DNA from: Corallococcus carmarthensis
GTDB lineage: Bacteria > Myxococcota > Myxococcia > Myxococcales > Myxococcaceae
DNA length: 64,000 bases
Assembly: GCF_003611695.1 (NCBI RefSeq)
Contig: NZ_RAWE01000013.1
Coordinates: 1 to 64,000, forward strand
Reading direction: 5' to 3'
Below, one piece after another: positions 53,804 through 64,000 of the stretch. The translations under genes and the position numbers were made by a program. Below the pieces are notes generated by a model, which saw only the letters and a list, made by a program, of their open reading frames with translations, was not told where the DNA came from and made no database searches. Each line of letters begins with the position of its first letter. The stretch's first letter is position 1.

Positions 53804-53969
53804 GACCTCCACGGTCCCATGACTCCGCCCCGCCGGCCAGCGGCGTCGGGTGTGCACGTGTGCAGCGCCCTGCACAACCGCCACGCGCCCGACGCACCCC
53901 GGTGGGTTTCAATCCCGTGCCCTTCCAGGGCATTGTGCGTGGCACGGTCGTTGTAGAGGGGGAAGCACC

Positions 53970-56900
53970 ATGTACTGTCCTGCCTGCCGACAAGAACGCC
54001 TGGGAAGCGCGTCCCAGTGCGTCGTCTGTGGCAATCGTCTCGCCGCCAGAGCCCGGTCCGCCATCGAGGCCGAGCTCGCGCATGTCCACTTCCTCCTGGA
54101 CGAGGTGCGACGCTGGGACGCCCACGACGTTCCGATCCACGTCGGCCGCCGCCTCACCGAGCGCTACGAGCGCCAGGCCCGCATCCTCCTCTCCGTCCTC
54201 ACCGAGATTCCCGTCGACGCGCTGACGTCCGCGCCCGTCGAGCCTCGCGACGAGGCCGTGGCGCCTCAGGCGATGGGGGAGGGGGCTGTCGCCCTCGGCC
54301 CCGTGGCGTTCTCCACCGGGGACGCTGCTTCCGCTGAAGTGCCTGTCGCGCACGGCGTGAGCTCCGATGCCGAAGAGGCCTCCGTCGCGCATGCGGCTGC
54401 GAATGTCGTCGCGGAGGCTGGCTCCGAGCCTTTCGTCGCGGGTGCCGCTGCTCCTGACGCTCACGCCTCCGTCGCCAACGACGCTGTCTCCGAAGCTCCG
54501 ACCGCTCACGCCTCCGTCGCCAACGACGCTGTCTCCGAAGCTCCGAACGCTTCCGCCGCTGTCACCGACGCTTCAGCGCCCCCTGCCGCGACCAGCGCCT
54601 CCGCCGTCCGCTTCACCACGCTCGACCTCGCCGCGGCCCTGGGGATCGCCCCTCCGTCTCCCGGGCTCCCCCGCGCCGCTCACGCTTCGAACGCGGCCCG
54701 TGCTTCTGCCGAGTCCCGCACGCGGGCCTTGAACGAACAGCGCGCGGCCCGCCAGTTGCCCCCGAACCCGGGCGAAGCGTTCATGGAGCCTCCCGCTCCG
54801 AACAGCCGCACCGCCCGCCTCGTCGAGGAGACCTCGACGTGGAGCCGCGTGTGGCGGCCGTTCCTCTACGAGAGCATCGCGTGGTTCATCGGCGCGTTCC
54901 TCATCCTCTCCGGCACGCTCTACTTCGTCTTCGAGTCCTGGGCCGGGATGACGTCCGTCACCCGCTCGCTCACGGTCTTCCTCATGACCGTGGGCTACTC
55001 CGTCGGCTTCTCCGTCTGGGGCGGCTACCTCGCCCGCCGTGAATCGCTGCGCAAGCCGGGCCACATCCTGGGCCTCATCGGTTCCGCCGTGGCTCCGCTC
55101 GGTGGCCTCGCGCTGGGGCCCATGGGCTTCGGTGAAGCCCTCCAACTCGACGGCGTGCGCCCCGTGCTGCTCGTGCCGCTCCTCTTCGCCTGGTCCGGCG
55201 CCGCGGCCTGGCTCGCCCGCAAGCCCGCAGAGTCCTTCGACGCGCCCTCCCGGCCGTTCATCCAGCTGGGCCTCGTCGGCGCCACGCTCATCATGGGCCT
55301 GGCCCCGCTGGCCGCGCGCCTGGGGGCCCCTGCGGTGTGGCTCAACGCCCTGCCGTGCATCCTCTTCTTCCTGCTGTCGAGCAAGGCCCTCACCACCCCG
55401 CGCAAGGGTGATGCGCTCGCCTTCGCGCTCGCCGCGCCTCTGTACCTCACCGCGCTGTTCGCCATCCGCCTGCACCTGGCGCTGGGCGCCGAGGGCACCT
55501 CCGTCCCTCCAGGCACCTACGCGCCCTTCGTCGCGTTCCTGCTCGCCACCTGCCTGCGCTTCCGCACGCTCGACGAGAAGCGCGCCGCGGATCCGCTCGC
55601 GGTCCTCATCATCGCGCTCCAGGTGGCCTGCCTCGCGGGCGCCATCACCGGCACGAAGCCCGCCTTCTTCTTCACCGCCGCCATCTTCACCGGCACGGTC
55701 GTGTCGCTGTCGCGCGGCCCCGTGAACCGCCTGCCGTGGCTCTACCCGGCGTACGTGGGCGCCTACTTCAGCTATGCGTCCAGCGCGCAGTTGATCCCGC
55801 ACGCGCTCACCCTCCTCATCAATGCCCTCAAGACGCGCATGGGCTACCCGCCCTCGGCGCCGCTGCCCCTCCACTACGGCGCGCTGACGGCCCTTCCGTT
55901 CGTGCTCGCGGGGCTGGTGCTCGCGTTCTTCTCCCAGAAGCGCGGCGAGCGCACCGGTGACGCGCGTTCCCTGGGGGTCGCGGACGTGCTGCTGCGAGCC
56001 ACCACCTGGGCCGCGCCCGCGTTCGCGCTCTACTCGCACCTGGGCGCCGACTCGCGTCCCTCCTTCTTCGCCACGCTGGCCCTGGCCGTGATGTCCCTGG
56101 GCGCGGGCCTGCTGTTCAAGCGCTTCCCGCTGTCCGCCGTGGGCTCGGTGCTCTTCGGCCTCCTGCCCTTCACCGCCTTCCGCGTCTACGGCGCGGGCAC
56201 CGCGGCCGTCGTGGCGGGCGTGTTGGCCCTGGGCCTCGCGGGCCTTGTCTGGCGGCTCACGGACGAGCGCACGCGGCGCTTCGTCTCCGCCGTGGTCGGC
56301 GTCATCGCGACATGCGGCTTCGCCATCGCGCTCGGCACGACGCCTGTCGCCGCGCCCGTCGTGGGCATGACGCTGGGAGGCGCGGGCGTGCTGGTGGCCG
56401 CGCTGCGGCTGCGCGACGAGCGCTACCTGGCCTACGGCGCGTTCCTCGCGGGTGCCATCCTGCCGAAGCTCGCCGCGGTCCACTCCACGCAGGCGCTGCT
56501 CGCGACGATGGTGGGCGGCTCGCTGGTGCTGGCGCTCCTGGGCGAGCGTGGCGGCCTGTTCAAGCGGTTCGGTGTGCCGGGCCTCCTGTACGCGGGGCTC
56601 GCCGTGATGTGGGGCCTGGTCGATCAGGCCTTCATGGGGCCCGTGCTCCTCACCGCCGCCGCGTCCGTGGCGGTGACCTCCCGCAGCTTCCCCGGCGTGC
56701 GGCCGTTCGCGGTCGTGCTCGTGGGCTTCGCGCTCCTGCCGGATGTGCCGCACGTGTACACCGCATGGGGTCTGCCGCCGGGGCTGTCGCTGGGACTGCT
56801 CATCCTGGGGTCGCTCGTGGCCTCCATCGTCGCCGCGCGCAAGGGGAAGAGCGCGAGCACCACCACCGCGGGCATCCTCGCGCTCCTCCTGCCGCTCTTG

Positions 56901-59714
56901 CCGGTGGCCCTGTCCCGTTCCGGTGATGGGTCCGTGTTCCTGATGGGCGCGGCGCTGGCGGCGCTGTTCACCGCCCGGACCCTGCCCGTGACGCTGGGCC
57001 TGGTGCTGGCCACCCTCGAGGCCACCTTCGCGCTGCACGCGTCCGGCCCGCTGGCCCTGGTGGGGCTCGCCGCGTTCCTCAGTGTCCTGGCCCTCCTGGA
57101 GGAAGTGCCCGCCGTGCGGCGCATCGCCGCGGGCGGCGAGTCCTTCCGCGTCGTCTCCGCGGTGGGCGCGATGGTGGTGCTGGCGGACGCCTCGTGGGCG
57201 TGGCACGGGCACGCGCTGTCGGAGCTCCGCGGCGCCATCCCGCTCGCGCTCCTCGGTCCAGCGCTGCTGCCACTCCTGTGGACGCGCGCGCTGCGCCATC
57301 CCTTCGCCGCGGCGCTGATGGTGCCCTACGGCGTGTTGACGTTGACGGCCTGGCACCCGCCCTTCGGGTGGACCGCGCTGCTGCCGCTCTTCCCGCTGCT
57401 CGTGGTGCGCATCGTGGAGCATGTGCCCGCCGTGGCCTCGCTGCTCCTGGGCTCGCGCGAGGAAGGCCCGCGCCACGAGTTGTCGAAGTGGATGCAGGTG
57501 GCGGTCGCGTGCCTGGGCGGCCTGGTGCTGTTGATTCCGGAGTCGGAAGTGGGGCAGCGCACGGCCCTCTTCTGCGCCATCGCGCTGGTGCCCATGACGG
57601 GCCCGCTGCCGTCCGTCCGGGTCATCGCCGCGTCCCTGCTGCTGCTGTTCCTCCCGGAAGCGCGGCCCTGGGCCACCGGCCTGTTGCTGGCCCTGGCGTT
57701 GGCTGAGCATCACGCGCCCCAGGCCCTGTCCTCCTTCTTCCGCGGCCCTCGTGACACGGCGCTGCGTGTTGCCGCGACGGGCTCGGCCCTGGCCGTGGCG
57801 GGGGTGTCCACGCTGGTGTCGCCGACTCCTGGCGCGCTCGCGGTGCTGGGCGCTGTCGTGCTGGTGTCCGCGTTCCTGCTGTCGCAGCGCTGGCTGCTCA
57901 CGGCGGCGGTGGCGGCGTTCGCGCTGGCGCCGCTGGGCCAGACGGCGGACCTGGCGGTGGGCATGTGGCGTCCGGAGGGCGGCCTGCTCGTCGCGGCCGT
58001 GGGCCTGGCCTCCGCGCTGCTGTCCGCGCTGTGCCAGTCCGGCGCCGTGCAGCGCACGCTGACGAACGTCACCGCGCGCCTGACGCCCGGCATCGAGGGC
58101 ACCTGGAGCGAGCCGCTGTGGGCCGGCGGCGCTGGCACCGTGGCGCTGCTCGTGGGCCTGCGTCTGGTGGACGCGGGCCCGGGGGCGCTGCCCCTGTCCG
58201 TGGCGCTGGTCGCGGGTGCCGCGTCGCTGACGCTGATGGTGACGCGCGAGCGCTTGATGATGAACGCCGCCACGGCGCTGCTCGGGCTGGTGCTGGTCGC
58301 CGCCGTGCCGCCGCTGTGGGCGCCCGCGGTGGTGGCGGGCACGGGCCTGCTGCTGGCGGCCGTGGGCTTCGCGCTGGACAAGCGCGGCGTGGAGGTTGGC
58401 GCGGCGCTGCACCACGGCGGCGCGCTGCTGGCGCTGCTGTCACTGGCGGGCCTGCGCTCGCTGAAGCACCCGGGCATGCCGCTGTGCGTGCTCTTCGCGT
58501 GGGCCACGGCGTGGGTGGTGGTGCTGCGCCGCCGGGACCGCGAGTGGGTGGGGTGGCTGGCGTCCCTCTTCGCCGTGCACGCCTTCATCCTGAACCATGG
58601 GGCAACGCACTCCACCGGCCGGGGCGCGGAGTTCATCATCCCGTACTTCGCCGCGGCGACGGCGCTGCTCGCCACGCTGGTGCTGTCCGTGGCGGGCAAG
58701 GCGGTGCGCGGGCGCATGGGGCGGGCGTTCTCCATCATCGCGCTCGTGGAGGTGCTGTTCGCGGTGCTGGCGGTGCACGTGCCGGGTGGCGCGGCGCGCG
58801 AGGCGTGGGTGGCGTGCGGCGGGCTCGTGTTCCTGTTGTTCGCCCTGGTGCGCCACGCGGCGCGCGAGCAGGACGAAGCCGCCGCGTGGCTCGCGCAGGC
58901 GGTGGTGGCGCTGGGCTACTTCAGCGTGCGCTTCATGGGCCTGGGCTCAAGCCCCGACGCCGCGGACAGCCTGATGTCCATCATGGGGGGCGCGGCCTTC
59001 ATTGGCCTGTACCTCTTCGTGCGGCGCGAGGGCGCGGGCCTCGAGGCCTTCCGCCGTCCCGCCGTGGCGGGCGCGTGGCTCTTCCCGCTGGCGGGCCTGC
59101 TGACGGTGCCGTGGAGCCAGCCCTTCGTGGCGATGGCGCTGCTCGTGGGCTACGCGGCGCACTTCGCGGCGCTCGGGGCGTTCACGAAGCAGAAGGGCGC
59201 GGCGTCCTTGATGTCCGTCGCCGCCTTCAACACGGCGCTGTACCTCGTGTGGCTGGGCACCGGCTCCGGCGAGCCGCAGTACTACGTCATCCCCGCGGGC
59301 CTCTCCCTGCTCCTGCTGCTGCGCGTCTTCCGCAAGAGCCTGTCGCAGGACGCCTACGCGCAGCTGCGCGCCCTGGCGGTGACGGGCATCTACGTGGCGG
59401 GCGCCTGGAAGCCGCTGCTCTTCAACGACGGCGAGGCGATGCTCCTGTGCGTCTTTCTCTGCCTCGTGGGCGTGGGCGCGGGCATCGCGCTGAGGATCCG
59501 CTCCTACGTGTACCTGGGCTCGGCGTTCCTGGTGACGGCGGTGGCGGCCAACCTGGTGCGCTTCGGCATGCGCGACCACCGCATCGGCGCCCTGTTCCTG
59601 TCCATGCTGGGCCTGCTGGTGGTGGGATTCATGGTGGTGCTCAGCGCCCACCGCGCCACCCTGCTCCAGAAGTACGGGCGGGTGCGCGACCTGCTCGCGA
59701 CCTGGGAGGGATGA
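53970..59714 (+). CDS. Giant polytopic membrane protein with N-terminal zinc ribbon
   Basis: 1914 residues from the ATG at 53970, with GAGGGGG upstream. Residues 3-20 form a zinc ribbon (C3-x2-C6...C17-x2-C20), followed by a charged helix and an Ala/Val/Ser-rich spacer including a 15-residue duplication (about 164-193). From about residue 300 to the end the protein is a near-continuous series of hydrophobic spans separated by short basic loops, several dozen by eye. The first (W-R-P-F-L-Y-E-S-I-A-W-F-I-G-A-F-L-I-L-S-G) recalls DUF2157/DUF2339-type membrane proteins. Function unknown. Possibly a scaffold or transporter. Confidence 0.8.
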   Translation: MYCPACRQERLGSASQCVVCGNRLAARARSAIEAELAHVHFLLDEVRRWDAHDVPIHVGRRLTERYERQARILLSVLTEIPVDALTSAPVEPRDEAVAPQAMGEGAVALGPVAFSTGDAASAEVPVAHGVSSDAEEASVAHAAANVVAEAGSEPFVAGAAAPDAHASVANDAVSEAPTAHASVANDAVSEAPNASAAVTDASAPPAATSASAVRFTTLDLAAALGIAPPSPGLPRAAHASNAARASAESRTRALNEQRAARQLPPNPGEAFMEPPAPNSRTARLVEETSTWSRVWRPFLYESIAWFIGAFLILSGTLYFVFESWAGMTSVTRSLTVFLMTVGYSVGFSVWGGYLARRESLRKPGHILGLIGSAVAPLGGLALGPMGFGEALQLDGVRPVLLVPLLFAWSGAAAWLARKPAESFDAPSRPFIQLGLVGATLIMGLAPLAARLGAPAVWLNALPCILFFLLSSKALTTPRKGDALAFALAAPLYLTALFAIRLHLALGAEGTSVPPGTYAPFVAFLLATCLRFRTLDEKRAADPLAVLIIALQVACLAGAITGTKPAFFFTAAIFTGTVVSLSRGPVNRLPWLYPAYVGAYFSYASSAQLIPHALTLLINALKTRMGYPPSAPLPLHYGALTALPFVLAGLVLAFFSQKRGERTGDARSLGVADVLLRATTWAAPAFALYSHLGADSRPSFFATLALAVMSLGAGLLFKRFPLSAVGSVLFGLLPFTAFRVYGAGTAAVVAGVLALGLAGLVWRLTDERTRRFVSAVVGVIATCGFAIALGTTPVAAPVVGMTLGGAGVLVAALRLRDERYLAYGAFLAGAILPKLAAVHSTQALLATMVGGSLVLALLGERGGLFKRFGVPGLLYAGLAVMWGLVDQAFMGPVLLTAAASVAVTSRSFPGVRPFAVVLVGFALLPDVPHVYTAWGLPPGLSLGLLILGSLVASIVAARKGKSASTTTAGILALLLPLLPVALSRSGDGSVFLMGAALAALFTARTLPVTLGLVLATLEATFALHASGPLALVGLAAFLSVLALLEEVPAVRRIAAGGESFRVVSAVGAMVVLADASWAWHGHALSELRGAIPLALLGPALLPLLWTRALRHPFAAALMVPYGVLTLTAWHPPFGWTALLPLFPLLVVRIVEHVPAVASLLLGSREEGPRHELSKWMQVAVACLGGLVLLIPESEVGQRTALFCAIALVPMTGPLPSVRVIAASLLLLFLPEARPWATGLLLALALAEHHAPQALSSFFRGPRDTALRVAATGSALAVAGVSTLVSPTPGALAVLGAVVLVSAFLLSQRWLLTAAVAAFALAPLGQTADLAVGMWRPEGGLLVAAVGLASALLSALCQSGAVQRTLTNVTARLTPGIEGTWSEPLWAGGAGTVALLVGLRLVDAGPGALPLSVALVAGAASLTLMVTRERLMMNAATALLGLVLVAAVPPLWAPAVVAGTGLLLAAVGFALDKRGVEVGAALHHGGALLALLSLAGLRSLKHPGMPLCVLFAWATAWVVVLRRRDREWVGWLASLFAVHAFILNHGATHSTGRGAEFIIPYFAAATALLATLVLSVAGKAVRGRMGRAFSIIALVEVLFAVLAVHVPGGAAREAWVACGGLVFLLFALVRHAAREQDEAAAWLAQAVVALGYFSVRFMGLGSSPDAADSLMSIMGGAAFIGLYLFVRREGAGLEAFRRPAVAGAWLFPLAGLLTVPWSQPFVAMALLVGYAAHFAALGAFTKQKGAASLMSVAAFNTALYLVWLGTGSGEPQYYVIPAGLSLLLLLRVFRKSLSQDAYAQLRALAVTGIYVAGAWKPLLFNDGEAMLLCVFLCLVGVGAGIALRIRSYVYLGSAFLVTAVAANLVRFGMRDHRIGALFLSMLGLLVVGFMVVLSAHRATLLQKYGRVRDLLATWEG
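54459..54548 (+). repeat. 45-bp tandem duplication in the giant membrane protein gene
   Basis: Two 45-bp units (54459-54503, 54504-54548) differ only at one codon (ACC versus AAC) and encode A-H-A-S-V-A-N-D-A-V-S-E-A-P followed by Thr or Asn. They lie in the low-complexity spacer between the zinc ribbon and the first membrane span. Confidence 0.85.
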
Positions 59715-61178: not shown

Positions 61179-61937
61179 CTAGCGCGAGGCCTTCTTCAGC
61201 AGGGCCTCGGTGTGGTCGAGCAGCTCCGGTCCGCCGGGCTGTTCATGGCCGGGCACGACGATGCGGGCGTTGGGGAAGTGCTCGCGCGCGGCCTTGAAGC
61301 TCGCGGGCCACGCGGCGACGTCCGCGTCCTCCAGGTTGCCCATGGCCTTCGCCTTGGCGTCGCGGATGAAGCAGCCGCCGTAGAGGACGCCCGAGGCCGG
61401 GTGCATGACGACGAGGTTGTCGGGCGTGTGGCCGGCGCCGGGGAAGAACACCGACAGCGGTCCGAAGTCCTGCGCGTCCGCCAGCCGCTTCGAGGGAACG
61501 GGGTTGCCCTGCTTGCCAGCACGGAGCGCGGTGTCCTCGCGTCCATGGACGGGGATGCCCTGGGCGTCGAGCGTGGGAATGCCGCCGGTCCGGTCGACGT
61601 GGAAGTGCGTCACCAGCGCGGCGCGCACGGGATGGTGGAGCGTGTCCTTTGCCCAGGTGAGCAGCGCCTTGGACTGCTCCGGCGTCCAGCCGGTGTCGAC
61701 GAGGATGGACGCGTCACCGTCTTCCACGAGGAGCCCGTTCGCGGCGGTGCCGCCCCAGTCCTTGCCGGCGTTCGTGATGTGCATCCAGACGCCGGGGGCG
61801 ATGCGGCGCACGCGCACGTCCTTCGCGAGCACGGTCTCCTCCTGCTTGGGGGCCTTGGAGGTCTTGGGAGGCGCCGCGGAGGCGGTGGAGGCGCAAGCGA
61901 GGACGGCGAGCAGGGTGATGCAGCGCAGTGGCTTCAT
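61179..61937 (-). CDS. Subclass B1-type metallo-beta-lactamase
   Basis: 252 residues from the ATG at 61937, preceded by AGGAG. All B1 zinc ligands are in place: H111-F-H113-V-D115 (site motif H-x-H-x-D), H170 in G-A-G-H-T-P-D-N-L-V-V, C189 in Y-G-G-C, and H231 in V-V-P-G-H. Asn201 follows the Cys as in B1 enzymes. An export signal precedes the mature start. B1 enzymes hydrolyse penicillins and carbapenems with two zincs. The closest known myxobacterial relatives are the MYX-type enzymes. An imperfect inverted repeat lies at 61979-61993. Confidence 0.88.
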   Translation of the reverse strand: MKPLRCITLLAVLACASTASAAPPKTSKAPKQEETVLAKDVRVRRIAPGVWMHITNAGKDWGGTAANGLLVEDGDASILVDTGWTPEQSKALLTWAKDTLHHPVRAALVTHFHVDRTGGIPTLDAQGIPVHGREDTALRAGKQGNPVPSKRLADAQDFGPLSVFFPGAGHTPDNLVVMHPASGVLYGGCFIRDAKAKAMGNLEDADVAAWPASFKAAREHFPNARIVVPGHEQPGGPELLDHTEALLKKASR

Positions 61938-61978
61938 GGGGCTCCTGAGAAGGGAACGCATGGGAGGCCCGCCGCGAA

Positions 61979-61993
61979 TGCAAACCGTATGCA
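61979..61993. promoter_or_regulatory. Imperfect inverted repeat upstream of the beta-lactamase gene
   Basis: TGCAAAC-C-GTATGCA (7-bp arms, one mismatch) sits 42 bp upstream of the ATG. Operator-like in size, but no regulator of the AmpR or BlaI type is adjacent. Confidence 0.3.
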
Positions 61994-62080
61994 CAACGGA
62001 TCCGCCGCGCTTCCATTCAGGAACCCGGGCGGGCACGCGGCTCCTGGGCCACACGCGCGTCCGGGGAGCCACGCCAGCGC

Positions 62081-64000
62081 TCAGGGCGCGGACTTCTTCT
62101 TCAGATCTTCAATGGCCCGGCTGAGAATCTGCGTGTTGCAGGCCTTGCCACCATTGGACGGCTTCTGAGGGGCTTGCTCCAGCGCGCGCGTGAGGGCGGG
62201 CAGGGCGGCGGGGTCGCCCAGGCTCCCCAGCCGCTGGGCCGCCTTCGTGCGCACGTTGCAGTCACTGGACTCCAACGCCGCGGAATAGAGCCCCAGGCGG
62301 TCCAGGCCTGGATGCTCCTTCCAGTCCAGGTAGCGCAGCGCGCCCCACTGCTTCGTCGAAGGCTGCCCCCGGGTCAGGGACTCCAGGTGCGAATGCACCG
62401 TGGGGGCAGGCAGGGCGTCCAGGGCCCTGCGCGCGGAGAGGTCCTTCTCGTTGTCCCCGAAGTCCTCCGCCAGCCCGTCCAGGAGCGCCATCTCGGGCGC
62501 CGTCTGGCCTTCCTTGTCCAGGCCCAGGATGAGGGCGTGCTCTTCGTTGTGCGCGCCCACCGAGTGCTTCGCCATCGCGCGCAGCCGTGTCGTCTCCGCG
62601 CCCTTCGGCGCATCTGGCGCATCCAACTGCTGGAGTGCCTCCTTGGGCTTGCCGTCCTTCAGCAATGCGCGCGCCCGCACCCGCGGATCATTCGCGTGCA
62701 CCGTCCAGGCGACGCCCGCCACCAGCAGCACCAGGGCGCCCGCGACGCCAGCCAGCACGCGCGGACGCTGACGCAGGAAGGCCATGCCCTTGCGCGCCTT
62801 CGTGCGCAGTCCGGCCATGCCCTCGCGCGCCTTCGTGCGCAGGCCGTCCAGCGGTGACTGCTTCGTCCCGTCCTCCGGGATGCCCAGCGCCGCGCCGAAC
62901 GGCGAGCCCTCCGCCGCGCGCGTCACCCGGTAGAGCTGCACCTTCTCGTCGCGGCCGGGCAGGGGGATGGTGCCGCAGGGCTCGGCGGAGGCCTCGGCGC
63001 GGTTTCGCACCATGTTCACGGCTTCGGTGAAGGTCACCTCGTCCGCGGCGGCCACGTGCTCCACCGCCTTCACCACTTCCATCGGCTCGCCGAGCACCGC
63101 GTCGTTCGTCACCAGCACTTCGCCCGCATGCAGGCACACGCGGATGTGGAGCTGGTGCTCGAGCGGAACCGTCTGGTTGTAGCGCCACAACGCCTGCTGC
63201 ATCGCCATGCCGCAGCGGATGGAGGTGGACGGGGCGCGGAAGACCGCCAGCAACGCGTCGCCGCGCTTCTGCACCAGCTTCCCGTCGTGTTCACGCACCA
63301 GCGGCATCAACAGCCGGTCGTGCGTGTCCAGCATCCGCGCGTTCTCCTCGTGCGTCTGCCGGCTCATGCGGTCGGTGAAGCCCTGGATGTCGGTGAGCAT
63401 CACCGTCACGTTCTGCGCCTTCGTCACCGCCGCGCCGCCCGTCACCGAGGGCATCCCGCCCGTCATCCGGGCCGCCGTGCCGAACGCCGCCGTGCCCGTG
63501 CGCGGCTGCGACTGCACCGGAGGCGCCGTCACCGAGGGCGCTCCCGGATTCACGCCGAACGCCGCCGTGCCGGAGCCCGGACCCGCGGGCGCGGGATTCA
63601 CGCCGAACGCCGCCGTGCCCGACCCGGAGAGGGCCGGCGCCGTGTTCATCCCGAAGGCCGCCGTGCCCGAGGAGGGCGTCGCGTGGACGATGGGCGTGCC
63701 CTGGCCAGGCGTGAACGCCATCAGCGCCGCATGCGCGATGCCCAGCGCGTCCGCCAGCTCGTTCGCCGTCTGCGGACGCTTCGCCGGGTCCTTGTCCAGC
63801 AGCCGCATCACCAGCGACAGCAGCCCCACGTAGCGCGACAGCTGCGGAGCCGCGCGCTCCAGGGGCAGCGGCGCGGACGAGGCGTGCTGGGACAGGAAGT
63901 GGCGCGGCGTAGGCCCGTCGAACGGCAGCCGCCCGGACAGCACGCGGTAGGCCAGCACCCCGAACGAGTACAGGTCGCTGCGCGTGTCCACCTTCGCGCC
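62081..64000 (-). CDS. Ser/Thr protein kinase fused to class III cyclase-like domain, 5' end beyond window
   Basis: 640 codons seen; the kinase N-lobe and catalytic loop lie beyond base 64000. The visible part starts in kinase subdomains VIII-IX (V-D-T-R-S-D-L-Y-S-F-G-V-L-A-Y), then a linker with four G-T-A-A-F-G units, then a nucleotidyl-cyclase/guanylate-cyclase-like domain with two Asp likely to bind metal (V-M-L-T-D-I-Q-G-F-T and K-R-G-D-A-L-L-A-V-F). One membrane span follows (L-A-G-V-A-G-A-L-V-L-L-V-A-G-V-A-W) with a HEAT-like helical C-terminal domain. Kinase-to-cyclase signalling in one chain, topology with a periplasmic tail, is inferred. Confidence 0.85.
   Translation of the reverse strand, partial: GAKVDTRSDLYSFGVLAYRVLSGRLPFDGPTPRHFLSQHASSAPLPLERAAPQLSRYVGLLSLVMRLLDKDPAKRPQTANELADALGIAHAALMAFTPGQGTPIVHATPSSGTAAFGMNTAPALSGSGTAAFGVNPAPAGPGSGTAAFGVNPGAPSVTAPPVQSQPRTGTAAFGTAARMTGGMPSVTGGAAVTKAQNVTVMLTDIQGFTDRMSRQTHEENARMLDTHDRLLMPLVREHDGKLVQKRGDALLAVFRAPSTSIRCGMAMQQALWRYNQTVPLEHQLHIRVCLHAGEVLVTNDAVLGEPMEVVKAVEHVAAADEVTFTEAVNMVRNRAEASAEPCGTIPLPGRDEKVQLYRVTRAAEGSPFGAALGIPEDGTKQSPLDGLRTKAREGMAGLRTKARKGMAFLRQRPRVLAGVAGALVLLVAGVAWTVHANDPRVRARALLKDGKPKEALQQLDAPDAPKGAETTRLRAMAKHSVGAHNEEHALILGLDKEGQTAPEMALLDGLAEDFGDNEKDLSARRALDALPAPTVHSHLESLTRGQPSTKQWGALRYLDWKEHPGLDRLGLYSAALESSDCNVRTKAAQRLGSLGDPAALPALTRALEQAPQKPSNGGKACNTQILSRAIEDLKKKSAP
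63480..63668 (-). repeat. Repeated GTAAFG-coding units in kinase-cyclase linker
   Basis: Four near-identical short stretches on the + strand reading CCGAACGCCGCCGTGCC (one copy with AAGG instead of AACG) code G-T-A-A-F-G, separated by Pro/Ala/Gly-rich spacers, between the kinase and cyclase domains. Each has a Thr that could be an autophosphorylation site, which is inference. Confidence 0.7.

Follow-up and report, generated by a model that had tools for sequence, protein, structure and literature searches.

The cyclase domain of a Pkn2-type kinase from Corallococcus carmarthensis resembles one half of a class III catalytic site and may pair with a separate membrane cyclase

The 64 000-nucleotide stretch of Corallococcus carmarthensis DNA analysed here, which we call the window, ends within a gene for a Ser/Thr protein kinase fused to a class III nucleotide cyclase-like domain. 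The question raised by this locus is whether such a protein makes a nucleotide messenger under the control of its own kinase, as a first-pass annotation of the DNA had proposed, or whether its cyclase domain has some other role. We have confirmed that this kinase–cyclase–membrane fusion is real and that it extends beyond the window end. The minus-strand frame at 62081–64000, which stays open at the end of the window and comprises the C-terminal 639 of 829 codons, was read to a GTG start at contig position 64570 (G000:C44), giving a full gene at 62081–64570. In a Pfam comparison of the complete 829-residue protein, residues 15–269 matched Pkinase (1.5e-47), the C-terminal part of this domain occupying window positions 63764–64000, and residues 383–547 matched Guanylate_cyc (PF00211; 3.1e-12; 46.9 bits against a cut-off of 21.9), corresponding to 62930–63424. 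Between the two domains lies a linker with four GTAAFG units, and beyond the cyclase domain a single span, identified by hydropathy near residues 604–624 (62699–62761), is followed by an all-helical domain (62084–62701; all features on the minus strand). The kinase half visible in the window, the cyclase-like domain, the membrane span and the exact number of linker units had thus been correctly anticipated. The kinase motifs in the N-terminal part beyond the window, of which the annotation had singled out HRD and DFG for checking, are all present (GSGGMGEV, VAIK, HRDLKPEN, DFG and GTPEY), and all 46 distinct rows of the orthologue alignment have intact catalytic kinase motifs, the fragment L059 and 11 identical rows having been left out beforehand. 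Membership of two known families was rejected. The TOMM kinase/cyclase fusion (TIGR03903) likewise carries a kinase and a cyclase in one chain, but only the kinase part of our protein matches it (158.4 bits against a cut-off of 705.75); the PASTA kinase family PknB/Stk1 (NF033483) was also matched by the kinase part only (278.7 against 450 bits), and Pfam gave no PASTA domain.

Full-length or near full-length matches were found at 21 named loci (L038–L058) from Corallococcus, Citreicoccus, Pyxidicoccus, Myxococcus, one Myxococcaceae MAG and a record that carries the label Comamonas, and a search of 145 genomes showed that such matches also occur in further genera belonging to this GTDB family. 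The Myxococcus xanthus orthologue (L054) is a full-length match of 830 aa from the same start, which we take to be the length of Pkn2 itself, and its surroundings are conserved, with a divergent TPR gene and an NlpC-type gene nearby; indeed, a very large divergent TPR gene adjoins pkn2 at most loci where that side was covered. By the published description of the Pkn2 architecture, taken together with this presumed length, our gene very probably represents the M. xanthus Pkn2 orthologue in this species, and it is therefore called pkn2 here. The description, as given in PMC1262709, is of a kinase, an Ala/Ser/Pro/Thr-rich stretch, an AC/GC domain, a span and nearly 200 outer residues, i.e. the same components in identical order. 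The kinase, cyclase and membrane plan has accordingly been in print since 2005 (PMC1262709), and the architecture is not new. HU proteins and a β-lactamase are reported substrates of Pkn2 (PMC1262709), phosphorylation of a β-lactamase having been reported in E. coli (PMC1262709; PMC2877116), and disruption of pkn2 gave a low myxospore yield (PMC2877116). Because of the E. coli result, a functional link between pkn2 and the metallo-β-lactamase-fold gene that adjoins it in the window (61179–62072, minus strand) was tempting; we dropped it, as among the loci compared this neighbour is present only in Corallococcus, Citreicoccus and one Myxococcaceae MAG. The record titled Comamonas sp. KCTC 72670 (L058; BNCN01000012.1) contains a pkn2 locus that resembles those of Myxococcus and has the same flanking genes, and its label is probably wrong. 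Elsewhere in the window, a very hydrophobic 1954-aa frame (53850–59714, plus strand) looks like a membrane protein with many spans and matched nothing in Pfam at E 0.01.

In class III cyclase dimers, monomer A contributes the metal-binding Asp residues and a triphosphate-binding Arg, and monomer B contributes Asn, Arg and Lys (PMC2576301; PMC6592433). The nearest solved relative of the Pkn2 cyclase domain is Ma1120, an adenylyl cyclase of Mycobacterium avium (PDB 4wp3, 4wp8 and others), in sequence (E 1.2e-15) as well as in fold (Foldseek E 3.4e-10 for a model of modest quality). Since the predicted model of the cyclase domain had a pLDDT of 61.5 and was poor at 113–150, residues were mapped from sequence alignments, in which the six catalytic columns came out alike with two methods in every one of the 60 rows. 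Both metal-binding Asp residues recognized at first pass are indeed kept, D394 (Asp 1) at 63389–63391 and D438 (Asp 2) at 63257–63259. The other side of the site is lost: the substrate Lys position is Gln (Q434; 63269–63271), the substrate Asp position is Ala (A491; 63098–63100), Glu (E498) and Ala (A502) stand in for the transition-state Asn and Arg, together spanning 63065–63079, and the β7–8 Lys position is Pro (P538; 62957–62959; all minus strand). The same holds across 54 distinct Pkn2 domains, counted after removal of identical sequences. Asp 1 is kept in 47 and Asp 2 in all 54, with Gln at the substrate Lys position throughout, Thr, Ala, Ser, Gly or Met at the substrate Asp position, Glu (52/54) or Gln (2/54) in place of Asn, and the Arg lost from 53 and retained in one. 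Two residues were examined only after the idea of a half-site had been formed, namely the β7–8 Lys, replaced by Pro in 54/54, and the β4 Arg of the metal side, which is retained in 54/54 but also in nearly every other domain read, and hence discriminates little.

By this pattern the Pkn2 domain would correspond to the C1-like half of a heterodimeric cyclase, keeping the A (metal) side and having lost the B (nucleotide) side. With five nucleotide-side residues lost, it would have no complete site, whether as a monomer or as a homodimer, and probably makes no nucleotide messenger by itself; we rejected an autonomous cyclase on the absence of base-binding Lys and Asp and of transition-state Asn and Arg (Lys in 0/54, Arg in 1/54). 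Our alignments differ in this respect from PMC1262709, which gives a conserved Glu and Thr as the base-specifying residues, whereas we find Gln and Ala/Ser/Thr; the loss of the whole nucleotide side is likewise at odds with the view taken there. In full-text searches of open-licence PMC papers, no title or abstract was found that describes the cyclase of Pkn2 as half of a site or links it to a receptor cyclase as its partner.

A candidate for the partner of such a half-site is a membrane protein that we term receptor cyclase b, found in many genomes of the family as frames of approximately 400–570 aa with the plan of cyclase, span and two-Cys solenoid seen in Pkn2. All eight catalytic residues are present in 37/37 distinct b sequences (identical domains removed; L220, from genome G084, was read separately). 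In a search of 134 genomes, with b defined as the second match below E 1e-35, b co-occurred in 66/66 genomes with the Pkn2 cyclase, a co-occurrence that is confounded by common descent. It was read in 31 of these 66 genomes and was complete in 30, and it is also present in genomes without the Pkn2 cyclase. Genome G084 provides a contrast, in this single genome, between the two proteins: its b has Glu and Gly where the two metal Asp residues would be, with K, D, N and R kept and Arg at the β7–8 position, and its Pkn2 (L160) keeps both metal Asp. No second close b was found in G084 besides L220, which, like the b of our own genome (L002), is cut by a contig end. Where Asp 1 of Pkn2 is lost, b is complete as read so far (L223, L224, L272–L275 and L279). 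A mirror-tree comparison of Pkn2 with b gave an uninformative partial r of 0.36, from just the 11 of 24 pairs in which the motif cuts worked. The C. carmarthensis genome also encodes a compact cyclase-like protein (L035; G000:C488) in which Glu aligns with the second metal Asp and K, D, N and R are present; it sits on a long, uncertain branch, and from its residues it is a possible further partner candidate.

Separation of the two sides onto different cyclase domains was also observed in a second GTDB family, f2. At all five f2 pair loci fetched (L249, L250, L251, L253 and L254) a C2-like domain is closely followed by a C1-like domain encoded on the same strand, the two being in one frame in L251. 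The C2-like domains have lost Asp 2 and kept K, D, N and R; the C1-like domains have kept both Asp, carry Gln in place of Asn, and have lost the β7–8 Lys and, in three of five, the Arg. With the catalytic columns removed the two kinds group apart, a single f2 clade being not firmly rejected (AU p 0.08), and Pkn2 itself can be joined to one group (p 0.48) or to the other (p 0.47) in the cyclase tree. A quick tree had grouped Pkn2 with the f2 C1-like halves; this grouping was gone once the six catalytic columns were removed, and we therefore claim no common origin for them. In mammalian adenylyl cyclases the metal side is similarly on one domain and the nucleotide side on the other (C1/C2; PMC2576301; PMC6592433), and the f2 tandem pairs would show this logic in bacteria. 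The mammalian halves differ from the arrangement proposed here in being parts of one chain, whereas the Pkn2 half is tethered to a kinase and its candidate partner is a separate protein.

The four GTAAFG units of the linker, located by pattern search, lie at 63650–63667 (Thr303), 63602–63619 (Thr319), 63554–63571 (Thr335) and 63479–63496 (Thr360), all on the minus strand. A degenerate DNA pattern for this motif matched four times in the 10.8 Mb genome and a reversed control pattern also four times, so that the number of matches is no more than chance; what is non-uniform is their clustering, all four being in the one pkn2 linker. A genome-wide GTAAFG code was rejected, as the exact motif is confined to pkn2 in its own genome. 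Three looser GTxxFG units are present in the linker of a second kinase of this genome (L015/L226; G000:C263), the one match among 16 other kinase loci. The more general motif T..F[GA] occurs in the linkers of 45/45 orthologues (L161, which is without a cyclase, was left out), in one to six copies each. The total of 153 is well beyond chance (shuffle mean 8 and maximum 17 in 500 shuffles); it comes from orthologues sharing descent and does not represent independent events. The first position was Thr in all 153 and Ser in none, even though the linker as a whole contains more Ser than Thr and the residue two before the motif Thr is Ser in 105 and Thr in 34. T-x-x-F was not found in 17/17 cyclase-less relatives, a set that includes a short stretch (L228), a cut C-terminus (L260) and a frame that is doubtful after the kinase (L235). 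Strict use of Thr together with an invariant residue at +3 would be expected under selection by a phosphothreonine reader, for example an FHA domain. As this motif never uses Ser and autophosphorylation of Pkn2 is reported to take place C-terminal to the kinase domain (PMC1262709), it is plausible that the linker Thr residues are phosphosites; juxtamembrane phosphothreonines and the idea of FHA docking have been described for StkP (PMC12077195).

The last 206 residues were modelled as a 13-helix solenoid with a mean pLDDT of 91.5, in agreement with the helical character first assigned to them. The HEAT label that had accompanied this assignment is weak: HEAT_2 at residues 761–800 of the full protein falls under its cut-off (25.6 against 27.7 bits), HEAT_PBS exceeds its cut-off of 20.9 on the window fragment (21.8) but not on the full protein (19.3), and fold matches of the model, TPR/HEAT-like, are weak (best E 0.015). 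Cys771 (62258–62260) and Cys811 (62138–62140) are invariant in 46/46 orthologue rows, and this invariant pair suggests a disulfide outside the cytoplasm; the domain is presumably periplasmic.

Complete kinase–cyclase–membrane fusions with all eight cyclase residues were found in relatives: L200/L237 (G039), L245 and L246 (G183) and L247 and L248 (G182), all five retaining HRD and DFG motifs. In a quick kinase tree, one group (98) comprises Pkn2, its cyclase-less relatives, L201 (with a degenerate cyclase), L200 (assigned to family f6) and the kinase of L207, which lies beside a gene for a C1-like cyclase; the cyclase-less forms (14 rows so labelled) fall in two places within it. L161, which has no cyclase, adjoins the same large TPR gene as pkn2. 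L245–L248 carry a different kinase (97), and their fusion is therefore independent of the L200/Pkn2 one, so that by the kinase tree there are at least two independent complete fusions. The simplest reading would be an old link between kinase and receptor cyclase, one-sided decay of the cyclase in Pkn2 and its removal at least twice. A different kind of fusion is seen in L202 (G138:C1215), a 1387-aa frame with a kinase, a longer canonical cyclase and a large C-terminal part.

Our current working hypothesis is that the Pkn2 orthologue would be a membrane receptor kinase with its Ser/Thr kinase in the cytoplasm and its helical, presumably sensing, domain beyond the membrane, and with a cyclase domain that offers the metal side only and neither a base- nor a transition-state-binding side. 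Its most likely mode of working would be dimerisation in trans with receptor cyclase b, a pair in which one composite site, with the metal side from Pkn2 and the nucleotide side from b, could be active. The linker T-x-x-F Thr residues, once autophosphorylated, would either switch this pairing or dock a phosphothreonine reader. To trans dimerisation with b, with linker phosphorylation as the switch, we would give slightly less than an even chance. It is supported by retention of the metal side and loss of the other side, β7–8 Lys included, in the 54 Pkn2 domains; by the presence of b in every Pkn2 genome and its completeness in all but one of those read; by G084, where b is without metal Asp and Pkn2 has both; by the side-by-side C2-like and C1-like coding at each f2 locus; by the exclusive use of Thr in T-x-x-F and the absence of this motif from the cyclase-less relatives; and by conservation of the cyclase domain, median identity across orthologues being 0.79 for the kinase and 0.72 for the cyclase as against 0.40 for the linker, 0.32 for the juxtamembrane region and 0.36 for the span. 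An active composite site cannot be general, since Asp 1 is lost in 7/54 Pkn2 domains while b there is complete; in those cases Pkn2 would rather hold b down. The more specific proposal, in which Pkn2 contributes the metal-side half of a split cyclase and forms a composite site with b, pairing is gated by T-x-x-F autophosphorylation, and C1/C2-like splits have arisen more than once (in f2, and in Pkn2 and b of G084), we consider rather unlikely. Against pairing in trans, a complete b could act as a homodimer, b occurs where there is no Pkn2 cyclase, and some Pkn2-like kinases have no cyclase domain.

These last kinases, which manage with the same outer domain and without a cyclase, bear equally on a second explanation, that the degenerate domain is a non-catalytic scaffold which only homodimerises Pkn2 and relays an outer signal to the kinase, being part of no cyclase site. 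We regard this as a serious possibility, somewhat short of even, as it accords with the loss of nucleotide-side residues from every Pkn2 domain and of Asp 1 from seven; it leaves unexplained why both metal Asp persist in 47/54 and why the b of G084 has lost just its metal side. That the domain is instead a relic, decaying from an old kinase–receptor cyclase fusion and with no present function, would fit the position of L200 and L207 next to the Pkn2 clade and the two groups of cyclase-less forms within the tree, yet a decaying domain would hardly be expected to exceed the linker, juxtamembrane region and span so clearly in identity, and we consider it improbable. Most improbable is the single-chain cascade of the first-pass annotation, in which the kinase phosphorylates the linker and thereby regulates an active cyclase on its own polypeptide. 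The intact kinase, the conserved T-x-x-F Thr residues and the complete fusions of relatives favour it, but five nucleotide-side residues are missing in this protein and its orthologues. Ma1120, in which Ala replaces the usual Asn, is active without this residue, yet it retains K101, D157 and R168, which are among its key residues (PMC4215837) and which Pkn2 is without. The annotation had itself set the cascade against loss of catalytic residues from the kinase or of substrate-binding residues from the cyclase; the former are intact and the latter are lost, and the cascade is therefore rejected for this chain. Since the five complete fusions have both kinase and cyclase sites in full, the idea fits these relatives, in which such a cascade is possible, and L200 and L245–L248 are candidates for a true single-chain kinase–cyclase.

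The cyclase-like domain of Pkn2 has been listed since 2005 with no role assigned to it in the available part of that report (PMC1262709). The residue pattern described here, along with a partner cyclase, makes a role directly testable, namely that the domain completes or blocks the site of a separate membrane cyclase. If trans pairing with b is correct, a receptor Ser/Thr kinase would physically own one half of an enzyme for a second messenger, and the sharing of one catalytic site would couple cyclic nucleotide signalling to protein phosphorylation.
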